64,000 nt of DNA from Nesterenkonia sedimenti (GTDB taxonomy: Bacteria; Actinomycetota; Actinomycetes; Actinomycetales; Micrococcaceae): NCBI RefSeq assembly GCF_012641515.1, contig NZ_JABAHY010000001.1:496001-560000 (forward strand), read 5' to 3'. The first letter of the stretch is position 1; every line of letters begins with the position of its first letter. Below are positions 5,641 through 46,085 of this stretch, piece by piece. A program made the position numbers and the translations under genes. The notes beneath the pieces are model-generated. The model saw only the letters and a program-made list of their open reading frames with translations, was not told where the DNA came from and did no database searches.

Positions 5641-7227
5641 ATGCAGGCACAGGCGGCACTGACCGAGGATCCGGATTTCACCCGGCGGTATCGTGCTGTG
5701 AAGTCTCGAGATCCCCGGTTTGATGGCCAGCTGTTCTTGGCGGTCTCAACCACCGGTATCTACTGCCGACCCTCCTGTCCGGCGCGAACCCCGAAACCGG
5801 AGAATGTCACTTTCTACACCACCTCGGCGGCTGCCCATGAGGCCGGCTACCGCGCGTGCAAACGGTGTCTGCCCGATGCGACCCCAGGCTCCCCGGAGTG
5901 GAATCTTCGCCAGGATCTCGCCGGCCGGGCCATGCGGCTGATCCGTGAGGGTGTGATGAACCAGGGCGGGGTCGAGGCGCTGAGCACACGATTGGGCTAC
6001 ACCAGCAGGCACCTGCACCGGATTCTGCGCGCGGAATTGGGTGCCGGTCCCCTGGCACTGGCTCGGGCACAGCGGGCGCATACCGCCCGGGCCTTATTGA
6101 GCACCACGGAGCTGTCAGTATCGGATGTGGCTTTCGCCGCGGGGTTCTCCTCGGTGCGCCAGTTCAATGCCACCGTCCGTGAGGTCTTCGACTGCTCTCC
6201 CTCACAGATCCGCAGCCGCACCCAGCACCTTGAGGTCACTGCGCAGCAGGCCCCGGATACTCCTCTGGTCTTGACTCTGGACTTGCCCGTCCGGCAGCCC
6301 TTTGATGCTCCCGGGGTTTTCCGCTTCCTGGCCGAGCGGGCGATAGATGGAGTGGAGGCCGCAGAGCTCAGAGCGCGCTATCTACGTTTTGCTCGGACCG
6401 TACACCTGCCACAGGGGCCTGGAGCGTTGGAGGTCACCGCGCAGCTGGTGGAGGGAGAGTGGCTGCCCCGGCTGTCCTGTGAGCTCAGTTCCCTGGCCGA
6501 TGTGCCCTCCGCAGTGGCTGCCGCGCGCAGGCTCCTGGACCTCGATGCTGATCCGCTCGGGATTGATTCCGCCCTGTCCGAGGACCCTGTCCTGCAGCCG
6601 CGAGTATCCGCGGTTCGAGGAATCCGGCTGCCAGGCACAGTTGAGCCTCAGGAGTATCTGGTCCGGGCTATTGTCGGTCAGCAGATCTCGGTCTCAGCGG
6701 CCCGGGCTCATCTCTGCCGTCTGGCGGGGCTCTTGGGGACGCCTTATGAGTCCAGGATTGCGGGGCTGAGCAGGCTGTTCCCCTCCCCCGCTGAGATCCT
6801 GGCGGGTGTGCCGGAGCCTGTTTCGGGGCAAACCCCTGACCCCCAGCGGCCGCTGAGGCTGCCGGCACGGTCGGTGAAGACAATCAGGACCGCATGCGCA
6901 GCCCTGGTGGAGGGGCAGTTGGATATGCACAGTGGTCGTGAGCCTGCTGCGATGCGTGAAGAGTTGAAATCAATGCCGGGTATCGGTGAGTGGACGGCTG
7001 CTTATCTGTCGCTGCGCCTGCTCGGGGATCCCGATGTGTGGATGACCGGAGATGTTGCACTGATCGCCGGTGCCAAGAAGCTGGGCCTGATCCCAGATGA
7101 CCTCCTCAAGGCGGCTGCCCACCGGGAACTTGCTGAGACTGCCAACCGCTGGTCGCCCTGGCGGTCCTATGCCGCTATGCACCTATGGGCTGCTGCATCT
7201 GCCCAGAAGGAAGGACCTCACCCATGA
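5641..7227 (+). CDS. alkA: Ada-AlkA fusion: alkylation-response regulator and 3-methyladenine DNA glycosylase
   Basis: The 528-residue protein joins three parts. The N-terminal Ada methyl-phosphotriester zinc domain has C42, C46 (CRPSC), C73 and C76 (CKRC). An AraC-type helix-turn-helix follows at about 95-200 (STRLGYTSRHLHRILRAELG; SVSDVAFAAGFSSVRQFN). The AlkA part has an N-terminal fold and a helix-hairpin-helix (MPGIGEWTAAYLSLR) followed by TGDVAL, where the catalytic Asp is expected. The same layout is known in mycobacterial AlkA. It should sense alkylated DNA backbone, activate transcription and excise alkylated bases. The stop overlaps the next start (ATGA), tying it to the methyltransferase. 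Confidence 0.93.
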   Translation: MQAQAALTEDPDFTRRYRAVKSRDPRFDGQLFLAVSTTGIYCRPSCPARTPKPENVTFYTTSAAAHEAGYRACKRCLPDATPGSPEWNLRQDLAGRAMRLIREGVMNQGGVEALSTRLGYTSRHLHRILRAELGAGPLALARAQRAHTARALLSTTELSVSDVAFAAGFSSVRQFNATVREVFDCSPSQIRSRTQHLEVTAQQAPDTPLVLTLDLPVRQPFDAPGVFRFLAERAIDGVEAAELRARYLRFARTVHLPQGPGALEVTAQLVEGEWLPRLSCELSSLADVPSAVAAARRLLDLDADPLGIDSALSEDPVLQPRVSAVRGIRLPGTVEPQEYLVRAIVGQQISVSAARAHLCRLAGLLGTPYESRIAGLSRLFPSPAEILAGVPEPVSGQTPDPQRPLRLPARSVKTIRTACAALVEGQLDMHSGREPAAMREELKSMPGIGEWTAAYLSLRLLGDPDVWMTGDVALIAGAKKLGLIPDDLLKAAAHRELAETANRWSPWRSYAAMHLWAAASAQKEGPHP

Positions 7228-42538: not shown

Positions 42539-44164
42539 GTGAGTCAGGCCGATACCACCGAGAAACGCCGGAAGCTGGAGCTGCGGCTGGGGGCTGACCG
42601 CTTCTCCCCCGGCTGGCTGGGCGCAGTCGTTCCAGCAGTGGTGGCGGTCTTTGCCGCATTATTACGTTTCCCGGGGCTGAGCGACCCCCATGCGCTGATC
42701 TTCGACGAGACCTATTACGCCAAAGATGCTTACGCCCTGCTGGAGGCCGGCTATGAGCTGGAATGGCCTGAGGGGGCCGATGATGTCTGGCTGGCTGAGG
42801 GCGAGACCCCGCAGCCGGGGGCAGCTGGTTCCTATGTGGTGCATCCGCCGCTGGGCAAATGGCTGATCGCCATCGGCATCCATCTCTTCGGCATTGAGCA
42901 GGCCACAGGTTGGCGTTTCGCCCCCGCCCTGGCCGGGGTTCTGGGCACTCTGCTGGTGGCATTGGTGGCCCAGCGGATGTTCCGCTCGGTATTCCTCGGC
43001 GGTGTGGCCGGTGTGCTCACCGCGGTGGAGGGCCATCATCTGGTGATGTCCCGGGTGGCGCTGCTGGATATCTTCCTGATGCTCTTCGTCCTGGCAGCAT
43101 TTGCCGCGCTGCTGGCCGATCGGTACAGCGGACGACGACGCCTGGCCGCCTGGGCAGCCGAGACACCAAGTGATTCACAGCTCTGGACAGCAGGCCCCTG
43201 GCTGCTGTGGCGGCCATGGCGGCTGGTTGCCGGGGTCCTGCTGGGCTGCGCGGTGGCTGTGAAGCTCTCCGGTCTGGCCTTCATCGCCGTCTTCGGGATC
43301 ATGGTGGTGCTCTGGGATATCGAGGCCCGCCGCACCTTGGGGATCCGGCGTTGGCTGCTCGGCGGCCTGCTGCGTGATGGCCTGCCGGCAGTCCTGACCG
43401 TCCTGCCGATGGCCCTGCTGACCTATCTGGCCTCCTGGACCGGTTGGCTGCTCGGTGAGCGGGGCTGGGACCGGGACGCCCATCCGAATCCCTTGGTGTC
43501 GCTGTGGCGGTATCACAGCTCGGCCACTGATTTTCACACCGGTCTGGACTCCGAGCATGAGTACGCCTCCCATCCCTGGACCTGGCTCTTCGCCGGCCGG
43601 CCAGTGTCGATGCACTATCAGTCCCGGGAGGAGGGCGAGGCCTTCGAGCACACCGCCATCGGCGGTGAGCCGGCGGTGGTCTGCCCCTATGACCACTGCT
43701 CCTCGGCAGTGCTGGATCTGCCGAATCCGCTGATCTGGTGGACCGGGGTGATTGCCCTACTCCTGGTGCTGCTGCTGTGGTTCGGGCGCCGAGATTTCCG
43801 CTATGGGGCAATCCTCGCCGGCTGGGTCGGCGGTTTCTTCGTCTGGCTGCTGGTCCTGATGTTCGGTGAGAACGACCGGACCATGTTCTTCTTCTACACC
43901 ATCAGCTACCACCCCTTCCTGATCCTGGCGATCACGGCGGTGGCGGCCCTGGTGCTGAGAGTCGGAACATCCCCAGTGGGCCGCGATGGCCAGTCACGGC
44001 CCAAGAGTCAGATCATCAGCGCCCAGCAGCGCAATACGGTGATGGTGCTCTGTTTCGTCCTGTTGGCGATTGCGGTCTCGGCCTATTTCTGGCCGCTGTG
44101 GACCGCTGAGATCATCCCCTATGAGCAGTGGCGCCAGCGCATGTGGCTGCAGTCCTGGATCTGA
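42539..44164 (+). CDS. pmt: Dolichyl-phosphate-mannose protein O-mannosyltransferase (PMT)
   Basis: The ~541-residue polytopic membrane enzyme transfers mannose from polyprenyl-phosphate-mannose to Ser/Thr of secreted proteins. It has the catalytic FDETYYAKDAYALLEAGYEL near residue 45, AVEGHHLVMSRVALLDIFLM, and many membrane helices. GTG 42539 starts the conserved part; the long frame upstream is only the antisense of rsmI. It overlaps the next gene by one base. It would glycosylate lipoproteins and stalk-type proteins such as the VWA pair. Confidence 0.93.
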   Translation: MSQADTTEKRRKLELRLGADRFSPGWLGAVVPAVVAVFAALLRFPGLSDPHALIFDETYYAKDAYALLEAGYELEWPEGADDVWLAEGETPQPGAAGSYVVHPPLGKWLIAIGIHLFGIEQATGWRFAPALAGVLGTLLVALVAQRMFRSVFLGGVAGVLTAVEGHHLVMSRVALLDIFLMLFVLAAFAALLADRYSGRRRLAAWAAETPSDSQLWTAGPWLLWRPWRLVAGVLLGCAVAVKLSGLAFIAVFGIMVVLWDIEARRTLGIRRWLLGGLLRDGLPAVLTVLPMALLTYLASWTGWLLGERGWDRDAHPNPLVSLWRYHSSATDFHTGLDSEHEYASHPWTWLFAGRPVSMHYQSREEGEAFEHTAIGGEPAVVCPYDHCSSAVLDLPNPLIWWTGVIALLLVLLLWFGRRDFRYGAILAGWVGGFFVWLLVLMFGENDRTMFFFYTISYHPFLILAITAVAALVLRVGTSPVGRDGQSRPKSQIISAQQRNTVMVLCFVLLAIAVSAYFWPLWTAEIIPYEQWRQRMWLQSWI

Positions 44165-44778
44165 TGTCAATGACGGAGCCCTCCCCCGCAGCAGCTAAGG
44201 CAGAGGTACGACGACGCCTCCGTACCGCCCGCAGGCAGCTCACCGCAGAGGACCTCCGCAGCCGTGGCGAACAGCTGGCTGAGGTCCTGACCGCACTCAT
44301 CCCCGCCGATGCCGTCCTCGCTGGCTTCCTCCCAATCCCCGGAGAGCCAGATCTGCTGCCGTTTCTGCACCGGCATATCAGCCGCGGCGGGGTGGTCTAT
44401 CTGCCGGTGATCGCCGATGCTGAGAACCGGCTTATGCAGTGGACTGCCTGGTCGCCTCAGACTCCCCTGCAGCCCAGCCCCTTTGCTCCGGTGAGCGAAC
44501 CGGCAGGCCCCAGGATCAGCACTGAGGAGCTCATCGGTGGGAAGCTGACAGTCCTGGTACCGGCCCTGGCAGTGGATACCTCAGGTGCCCGGCTGGGCCA
44601 GGGCGGCGGCTATTACGACACGCTCTTCCAGCAGAACCCGAAGCTGGCCACCAGGGCTCAGCTGCTGGCTGTGGTTCACTCCTGGGAGGTTCTTTCCCCG
44701 GGCAGTTTCCCGGTGGAGACCCATGATCTGCGGATCCAGCAGGCGGTGACCGAGACCGGAGTCCTCTCCTTGGGCTAG
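44164..44778 (+). CDS. 5-formyltetrahydrofolate cyclo-ligase
   Basis: The 204-residue enzyme turns 5-formyl-THF into 5,10-methenyl-THF using ATP. The N-terminus is basic (AAAKAEVRRRLRTARRQLTA), the middle has GFLPIPGEPDLLPFL, and the C-terminal substrate loop is DTSGARLGQGGGYYDTLF. The ATG overlaps the pmt stop (TGATG). Its stop lies inside the -10 box of the next gene, so the two units abut. Confidence 0.93.
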   Translation: MSMTEPSPAAAKAEVRRRLRTARRQLTAEDLRSRGEQLAEVLTALIPADAVLAGFLPIPGEPDLLPFLHRHISRGGVVYLPVIADAENRLMQWTAWSPQTPLQPSPFAPVSEPAGPRISTEELIGGKLTVLVPALAVDTSGARLGQGGGYYDTLFQQNPKLATRAQLLAVVHSWEVLSPGSFPVETHDLRIQQAVTETGVLSLG

Positions 44779-44780
44779 AA

Positions 44781-44807
44781 TTAGCACTCGATACTTCTGA
44801 GTGCTAA
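44781..44807 (+). promoter_or_regulatory. Perfect CIRCE element (HrcA operator) before fmdB
   Basis: TTAGCACTC (44781-44789), nine bases, GAGTGCTAA (44799-44807) is an exact match to the CIRCE operator of the heat-shock repressor HrcA. TAGAAT (44776-44781) immediately before it can serve as the -10 box, so transcription would begin inside the element. The first codon of fmdB follows 17 bases later, after GGGAGA. Confidence 0.93.
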
Positions 44808-44824
44808 CCCCGGGAGACTGGAAA

Positions 44825-45124
44825 ATGCCTACCTATGCCTATGCCTGTAAGGACTGCGGTCACGCCTTCGATATCGTGCAGTCCTTTACGGAGGATTCAC
44901 TGACTGAATGCCCCGAATGCTCCGGTGTGCTGCGGAAGAAGTTCGGCAATGTCGGTGTGACCTTCAAGGGTTCAGGCTTCTACCGCACCGATTCCCGCGG
45001 CAGCTCCTCCAGCAGCGATTCCAGCACCAGTTCCTCCGGTGAGTCCTCCAGCACCTCCTCGAGCTCCAGCAGTTCTAGCAGTTCCAGCAGCTCAACTGCG
45101 GCTGCCTCAACCTCCAGCTCTTAG
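44825..45124 (+). CDS. FmdB-family zinc-ribbon protein with Ser-rich tail
   Basis: The 99-residue protein starts with the FmdB zinc ribbon: MPTYAYACKDCGHAFDIVQ and LTECPECSG, two CxxC pairs for one zinc. KKFGNVGVTFKGSGFYRTD completes the conserved region at about residue 58. The remaining ~40 residues are almost all Ser with some Thr, Ala and Gly, written with mixed codons, so not a simple slippage tract. The role of the family is unclear. The perfect CIRCE element upstream puts it under probable HrcA heat-shock control. Confidence 0.9.
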   Translation: MPTYAYACKDCGHAFDIVQSFTEDSLTECPECSGVLRKKFGNVGVTFKGSGFYRTDSRGSSSSSDSSTSSSGESSSTSSSSSSSSSSSSSTAAASTSSS

Positions 45125-45981
45125 TCCTCCTCTCCGACGAGACTGAGGTGCAGCCGGCCGCTGTGGGTGGCCTCAGCGATGGCCTCAGCGGTCTGGGCAT
45201 CCACGGCGAGGATCACCACATTCTGCGCCTCGGTTCCGGCACCGAGCCAGTTCTCCGACTCCTCCTGCGGCACCCACAGCACCGGCACAGATTCGGCAAT
45301 CCGCCGCGGTCCGGTGTCCTCCTCGGGGATATCGGCTGAGGCTGTGACATCGACTCGTTGGCCTGGGGTCAGCATCCCGATGATGGCAGTATCTGCCGGC
45401 CGAACCGGAACCGCCACAGTTCCGGGATCGAAGCCTGCCAGGAGGCCGGGGCCCACCAATTGTGCGGGGTGCGCGATCGCCCCGGCAGGCAGTGTGGTGG
45501 CCGTTGTCTGGCCCAGGAAGTCTTCCAGCTGCCCGGAGTGGCCCTCGGGGACTGCGGAGGAGTCGATATCGGCGATCTCAAGGTGCTCTGCCTCCAGCCT
45601 CTCCCCCACTCCGATATCGGTGGTGACCCGCACCGCCTGGGTGGTCTCCAGCTCGGGGGCCTCAGCCGCCAGCAGCACTGCCGCTGCGGCTGCCAGGGCC
45701 AGGGTTATGGCCACCGGTATCCGGAATCTGCGGATCCACCGGTAGAGCCCACCGGGTTTCAGCCGGCGGCTGACCCGCGGCGGCTTGCTCCGCTGCCGCC
45801 GTCGTCGTTGTCGGTCACGGGAGGCAGAGCGCCTGCGGGTCTCCACCGGCGCTTCCGGCCGGGGTGCAGCATGCTGAGGTCTGCCCGGCGTGAAGGGGAC
45901 ACTCTTCTCAGTCACTGGCCTCGGTCTGCGGATATGCCGCCGGCGCGCCGGGGCGATGGCTGAGAAGGTCTCACTGCTCAT
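45121..45981 (-). CDS. SAF-domain membrane protein (CpaB/RcpC-like)
   Basis: The 286-residue protein has a basic, Arg-rich cytoplasmic N-terminus (about 1-85), one membrane helix (IPVAITLALAAAAAVLLAA) and an outer SAF-like domain (VTTDIGVGERLEAEHLEIAD; LPAGAIAHPAQL) followed by TPGQRVDVTASAD. The arrangement recalls CpaB/RcpC of Flp/Tad pili, but no tad genes are in view. It could be a lone sugar-binding or pilus-base protein. It converges on fmdB with a four-base overlap. Confidence 0.82.
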   Translation of the reverse strand: MSSETFSAIAPARRRHIRRPRPVTEKSVPFTPGRPQHAAPRPEAPVETRRRSASRDRQRRRRQRSKPPRVSRRLKPGGLYRWIRRFRIPVAITLALAAAAAVLLAAEAPELETTQAVRVTTDIGVGERLEAEHLEIADIDSSAVPEGHSGQLEDFLGQTTATTLPAGAIAHPAQLVGPGLLAGFDPGTVAVPVRPADTAIIGMLTPGQRVDVTASADIPEEDTGPRRIAESVPVLWVPQEESENWLGAGTEAQNVVILAVDAQTAEAIAEATHSGRLHLSLVGEED

Positions 45982-46085
45982 ACCGGCCAGCATGCAGCCG
46001 AGCGCACCCCGCGCCTGGGCCTATGGGCCGGACTGTGGAGACACCGGAGTGTCCCAGGGACCCTTACTGGGGCTGGGGAAAACCC

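Follow-up and report, generated by a model that had tools for sequence, protein, structure and literature searches.

The redox-regulated chaperone Ruc (Rv0991c) of Mycobacterium tuberculosis, whose gene is repressed by HrcA, is the closest described counterpart of the locus studied here (PMC7448276). In that study, Ruc levels go up at 45 C and also when hrcA is mutated, and the SigH and HrcA sites overlap at the ruc promoter. The protein binds one zinc via the cysteines C8, C11, C29 and C32, is inactive when reduced and acts as a holdase when oxidised, for which its disordered tail is needed (PMC7448276). Ruc is also described as promoting refolding by Hsp70/Hsp40 (PMC7448276; review PMC8223512), and Rv0991c as SigH-dependent in M. 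tuberculosis, with GGAA-19-GTT as the SigH consensus (PMC4803200). The study of Ruc reports no strong virulence defect, finds ruc dispensable in several oxidative stresses tested and calls genomes without Hsp33 usual in Actinobacteria (PMC7448276). A survey of bifidobacteria gives GroEL, GroES and HrcA as the targets of HrcA, with neither FmdB nor ruc among them (PMC9004370). In Mycobacterium intracellulare under acidic and oxidative stress, an FmdB family protein was differentially expressed, in an entry that names neither HrcA nor CIRCE (PMC11022373). In the open-licence literature, covered mostly through titles and abstracts, we found no CIRCE at fmdB or ruc outside mycobacteria; the comparative pattern may be recorded elsewhere. 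The regulatory link and the function of Ruc are already published for one species, and what looks new here is the breadth of this link, the exchange of promoters and the absences that are specific to ruc.

In this study, we have analysed a stretch of 64 kb (the window), in which a perfect CIRCE operator lies in front of a small zinc-ribbon gene. The features of the locus are:

44164..44778, + strand: 5-formyltetrahydrofolate cyclo-ligase (MTHFS) gene, 5' of ruc (PF01812, 100.2 bits; TIGR02727, 105.3 bits)
44776..44781, + strand: predicted -10 hexamer TAGAAT, called from its position, its conserved offset in relatives and the same arrangement at this genome's own hrcA promoter (L005)
44781..44807, no strand assigned: CIRCE operator, predicted HrcA binding site, 0 mismatches, present at many orthologues
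44825..45124, + strand: ruc orthologue, labelled FmdB-family zinc ribbon, 99 aa (TIGR02605, PF09723)
45121-45993, - strand: CpaB/RcpC-like gene (Flp pilus assembly), convergent with ruc (ORF and profile matches)

The operator, TTAGCACTC-GATACTTCT-GAGTGCTAA at 44781-44807, is a 9-9-9 inverted repeat that ends 17 bp before the gene. The pattern TTAGCACTC-N9-GAGTGCTAA close to a promoter is the mark of the CIRCE/HrcA regulon. The exact CIRCE of the original prediction is borne out, as this site has 0 mismatches and, with up to 3 allowed, no other match turns up on the two strands of the whole window; 100 dinucleotide shuffles of the window gave a mean of 0.01 such matches, with one shuffle in 100 containing any. 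The final T of the TAGAAT hexamer is the first T of CIRCE. Its TAG doubles as the stop codon of the MTHFS gene, the 3' end of which contains the region upstream of the -10. A standard sigma-70 promoter scan called no promoter at ruc, because no -35 was recognised, and the assignment of the -10 therefore stands on the comparative evidence given below. The SigH/SigR-type motif GGAA-N19-GTT is absent from the 90 bp upstream of CIRCE in the window.

The gene behind the operator is, as had been proposed, of the fmdB zinc-ribbon type, its product scoring 66.4 bits against TIGR02605 (cut-off 31.3) and 56.4 bits against PF09723. The list of open reading frames puts its start at GTG 44801, within CIRCE; we adopted the ATG at 44825 because the profile match begins there. 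Cysteines 8, 11, 29 and 32 form two CxxC motifs with 17 residues between them in an N-terminal zinc ribbon, and 31 of the 48 residues of the C-terminal tail are serine, a composition compatible with a disordered and hydrophilic tail. This protein is almost certainly the counterpart of Ruc, an orthology based on cysteine positions, the serine-rich tail and the regulon, and FmdB is only a family label for the gene. The ends of ruc and of the convergent CpaB/RcpC-like gene overlap by 4 bp (45121-45124), because of which ruc is probably transcribed on its own, save for any read-through.

The proposed control also depended on an hrcA gene elsewhere in the genome. Our investigation confirmed that hrcA is present and intact (PF01628, E 4e-48), thereby ruling out a genome devoid of the repressor; the match to its DNA-binding domain is marginal (PF03444, 21.6 bits against a cut-off of 21). 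At up to 3 mismatches the genome holds six CIRCE-like sites, all with 0-2 mismatches and each matched on both strands, as expected of a palindrome; the reversed pattern gave 0. Besides the perfect site at ruc, with the genes identified from ORFs and Pfam, two sites precede groES (0 and 1 mismatches), two groEL (1 and 2) and one hrcA (1). From these sites, ruc is the fourth locus of a normal predicted HrcA regulon. An HrcA control that would tie this FmdB-type gene to folding stress is thus well supported, through hrcA itself, the sites at groES, groEL and hrcA and the conserved linkage described below; as a novelty the idea does not stand, the link having already been reported for Ruc in M. 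tuberculosis (PMC7448276).

To describe how widely CIRCE precedes ruc, we searched the 250 bp upstream of each orthologue and called a site when no more than 5 of its 18 positions were mismatched, a threshold fixed post hoc, after the upstream values had split into two ranges, 0-5 and 6-10. A class locus with 6 mismatches (L306) was scored as none, although its site may have decayed. The class sample comprises 148 genomes, of which 139 match TIGR02605 and 142 match HrcA (eight of these over the profile end only); counts use the best TIGR02605 match per genome, hence 139 loci. CIRCE was found upstream of the ruc/FmdB-type gene in 109 of these 139 genomes, as compared with 1/139 for the reversed pattern upstream and 0/139 inside or after the gene start of the same loci. 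At least one genome has CIRCE at ruc in 32 of the 37 sampled family codes of the class (family and genus codes, f and g, are the sample's group labels; the taxon names given to groups are our reading of them). Of 80 genomes from the window's family, 71 match TIGR02605 and 79 carry hrcA; a profile made from Ruc-type proteins of this same family assigns a Ruc-type gene to 68 of the 71. Forty of these 68 genes have CIRCE (controls: 1/68 reversed upstream, 0/68 inside the gene), so that the search for CIRCE before fmdB in other actinobacteria succeeded in both samples. The perfect operator also occurs in a congener (G383) with a 9-bp spacer that differs from the window's, and the CIRCE arms look constrained in this comparison.

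Other FmdB-type genes behave differently from the Ruc type: in the window's family, none of 20 paralogues has CIRCE, a set that consists of the low-scoring copy from three genomes of one genus and 17 second copies elsewhere, three second copies under the family cut-off being excluded. These paralogues (L240-L259), many of which start with MPIYEYRC or MPLYEFRC, also have no MTHFS neighbour, and they form a separate subfamily. At a broader scale, an exact core CIRCE followed by an FmdB start was found in at least 15 of the 246 genomes of a phylum sample (reversed control 0/246), the strictness of the pattern making this a lower bound, and a scan of named genomes gave at least 119 stretches with the CIRCE pattern before an FmdB-type start. 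Among the 80 of these that were listed by name are Streptomyces, Micromonospora, Amycolatopsis, Lentzea, Tsukamurella, Dietzia, Nesterenkonia, Acidimicrobiia, others and one Dehalococcoidia MAG. The latter (L048, ruc near 6160-6249), which falls outside Actinomycetota, encodes a divergent Ruc behind a perfect CIRCE that a TATAAT overlaps in the same way; misbinning is possible.

The promoter was compared across the same loci. When the 40 family ruc promoters with CIRCE were aligned on the operator, a single strong upstream block emerged, TAGAA followed by T. The exact TAGAAT lies at the window's offset in 33 of the 40 (window counted) and at no other scanned offset, and TANNNT in 37. At the same offset of 40 hrcA promoters of the family, TAGAAT is found in 9, TAGAAT or TAGACT in 29 and TANNNT in 35; this genome's own hrcA promoter has the identical overlap of TAGAAT and CIRCE. 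YANNNT occupies the -10 offset in 78 of 107 class loci (the 109 minus two loci of the window's own family, counted already), the next best offset having 13. Judged by this conservation, the -10 box predicted to overlap the first base of CIRCE is a real element. We also searched for a SigH-type promoter over the operator, defined as GGAA-19-GTT with the GTT starting at most 8 bp from the operator's first base, and found it in 19 of the 107 class loci and 2 of the 40 family loci (single-base shuffles gave means of 0.08 and 0.0, respectively); the motif also occurs further upstream in three class and four family loci. The 80 named loci listed, of at least 119, comprise 35 from Streptomyces and 45 from other organisms; a SigH/SigR-type promoter lies over CIRCE in 33 of the former and 10 of the latter, as against 3 and 19, respectively, for YANNNT at the -10 offset. 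From these differing counts, we read the operator as the constant part of the arrangement and the type of promoter as the part that varies: SigR/SigH-type in Streptomyces and probably in mycobacteria, housekeeping type in the window's family.

The link between HrcA and ruc is not universal. No CIRCE was called at 28 of 68 ruc genes of the family and 30 of 139 of the class sample, and on these counts the link is not essential to ruc. In the family, the genes without CIRCE fall in 10 genera devoid of any CIRCE at ruc and 3 mixed genera; the window's own genus is mixed, with CIRCE at ruc in 2 of 4 genomes and none in G413 and G437. We examined about 0.9 kb before hrcA in 40 family genomes, namely all 27 that combine hrcA with a ruc lacking CIRCE, and a sample of the others (3 of the 12 genomes that have no Ruc-type gene, and 10 of the 40 whose ruc has CIRCE). 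CIRCE precedes hrcA in every one of the 40 at up to 4 mismatches, including 27 of the 27 in which ruc has none; the reversed control reached 5 mismatches in one of 40 and 4 in none. As every hrcA promoter examined keeps its operator, the absence is, by this comparison, specific to ruc. Based on the breadth of CIRCE across the class, we infer loss rather than repeated gain.

Several of the loci without CIRCE deserve mention in their own right. Some retain TAGAAT, and in two of them (L232, L234) only about 6 bases lie between this hexamer and the GTG with which ruc starts, a distance so short that the ruc mRNA is likely to be leaderless. In eight genomes of one family code (f85), the HrcA profile matches at only about positions 123-215, in open frames of 243-254 aa, which possibly reflects a shortened or diverged HrcA; none of their loci (L147, L261, L318, L322, L323, L326, L327 and L328) has CIRCE at ruc. 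We draw no causal link to the partial HrcA match, since the two f85 genomes with full-length HrcA likewise have no CIRCE at ruc. Similarly, one genome with neither hrcA nor CIRCE (G374) was discarded as a natural test, since its congeners G404 and G430 have no CIRCE despite having hrcA. Finally, hrcA was not detected in three drafts (G265, G272, G355; 80-94% complete), which keep CIRCE at ruc with 3 mismatches; either the gene was missed, or its absence is recent, and these drafts were likewise set aside as a natural test.

We place at about 0.87 the probability that the window contains the control region of a ruc orthologue at which HrcA represses from CIRCE, stress releases this repression and oxidation activates Ruc. 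The operator, the -10, hrcA, the regulon sites, the orthology and the comparative conservation are shown by sequence comparison, whereas binding, repression, induction, start site, sigma factor and chaperone activity are what we propose for this organism. RNA polymerase with the housekeeping sigma factor would use the TAGAAT -10, and transcription would start, by the usual spacing, about 6-8 nt past it, within the left arm of CIRCE. Bound to CIRCE, a dimer of HrcA would cover the -10/+1 region and block initiation; transcription that runs on from MTHFS could partly escape this block. Heat or other folding stress would then inactivate HrcA through GroEL titration, through pupylation and degradation, or through both. 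GroEL titration of HrcA is known from Bacillus work. Pup is encoded in this genome, and pupylation-dependent degradation of HrcA has been described for M. tuberculosis (PMC7448276, PMC8223512). Once released, ruc would be expressed along with GroES, GroEL and HrcA, and the protein would stay a zinc-bound, inactive reservoir until oxidised; oxidation of the four cysteines would expel the zinc and yield a holdase that hands its clients to DnaK.

Other readings of the locus have to be weighed against this one. CIRCE might mainly control or end transcription of MTHFS, or form a hairpin in read-through mRNA, with ruc merely downstream. Two bases separate the MTHFS stop codon from CIRCE, and MTHFS precedes ruc in all 68 family loci, as one would expect on such a reading; yet those 68 include all 28 loci without CIRCE, and in the class MTHFS was found upstream at no fewer than 27 of 109 loci with CIRCE and 9 of 30 without it (lower bounds, at least 36/139 in all, from a single tblastn query, most loci having flanks of 900 bp). 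CIRCE therefore tracks ruc, not MTHFS. A terminator scan of the ruc locus also returned no terminator-like site, and the main transcript, if begun from the conserved -10, would have its 5' end within CIRCE and could not form the complete hairpin, so that we regard a role centred on MTHFS as very improbable. Hardly any credence goes to the idea of a relic site, still bound by HrcA in a system that no longer matters, with the family's control of Ruc shifting to other regulators. The 28 of 68 family ruc genes without CIRCE, in genomes whose hrcA keeps its own operator wherever examined (27/27), lend themselves to this idea, but the operator is perfect in both the window and the congener G383 though the 9-bp spacer between the arms differs, which makes the arms look constrained.

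It could also be that the product is not a Ruc chaperone and is instead an FmdB-type zinc ribbon with another role, for example in transcription or translation, recruited by HrcA. The name FmdB does stem from other contexts, a search of solved structures gave no credible relative (best E 0.33), and the chaperone activity found in the literature covered is that of the M. tuberculosis protein (PMC7448276). Against this, the window's protein has a serine-rich tail and shares the cysteine positions and the regulon with Ruc, and the FmdB paralogues, which have no CIRCE, score far lower on the Ruc-type profile, though this profile was itself derived from the Ruc-type proteins of the family. We consider a non-chaperone role unlikely and retain the reading of an HrcA-controlled ruc orthologue.

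In a wider sense, our results lead us to favour, with some reserve, a scenario in which the link between HrcA and ruc is old and widely kept in Actinomycetes, the sigma factor is exchangeable, and ruc has left the regulon repeatedly with hrcA remaining autoregulated. The link may be older still, given the perfect CIRCE and TATAAT overlap of the Dehalococcoidia MAG. By these data, a link described in one pathogen becomes a trait common in its class, and harmless model species come into view for its study; Nesterenkonia muleiensis (L063) is a culturable relative with CIRCE at ruc. If ruc has indeed left the regulon repeatedly, species in which heat governs Ruc can be set beside species in which it does not, and the natural absences in which hrcA and its own CIRCE are kept make it possible to ask cleanly what a redox chaperone gains from being under heat control. 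The same features help to sort FmdB-family genes into Ruc, CIRCE-bearing and serine-rich, and the paralogues.

In conclusion, the locus combines traits of three described systems. It resembles ruc of M. tuberculosis in its zinc ribbon with cysteines at 8, 11, 29 and 32, in its apparently hydrophilic tail, in an operator that overlaps the promoter and in a regulon shared with GroES and GroEL. The key distinctions are that a SigH site lies over the HrcA site in M. tuberculosis, where the window has a TAGAAT -10 instead, and that serine makes up most of the tail of the window's protein (31 of 48 residues). Its operator and repressor are those of the classical CIRCE/HrcA system (groESL, groEL, hrcA), and the TAGAAT-CIRCE overlap recurs at this genome's own hrcA; in contrast, the target is a non-ATPase redox chaperone and not a chaperonin, and a single CIRCE lies at ruc as opposed to the pairs at groES and groEL. 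Hsp33 (PF01430) has no match in this genome, and according to the study of Ruc its sequence similarity to that protein is limited to the four cysteines, but the two share an analogous four-cysteine zinc switch that produces a holdase upon oxidation (PMC7448276).
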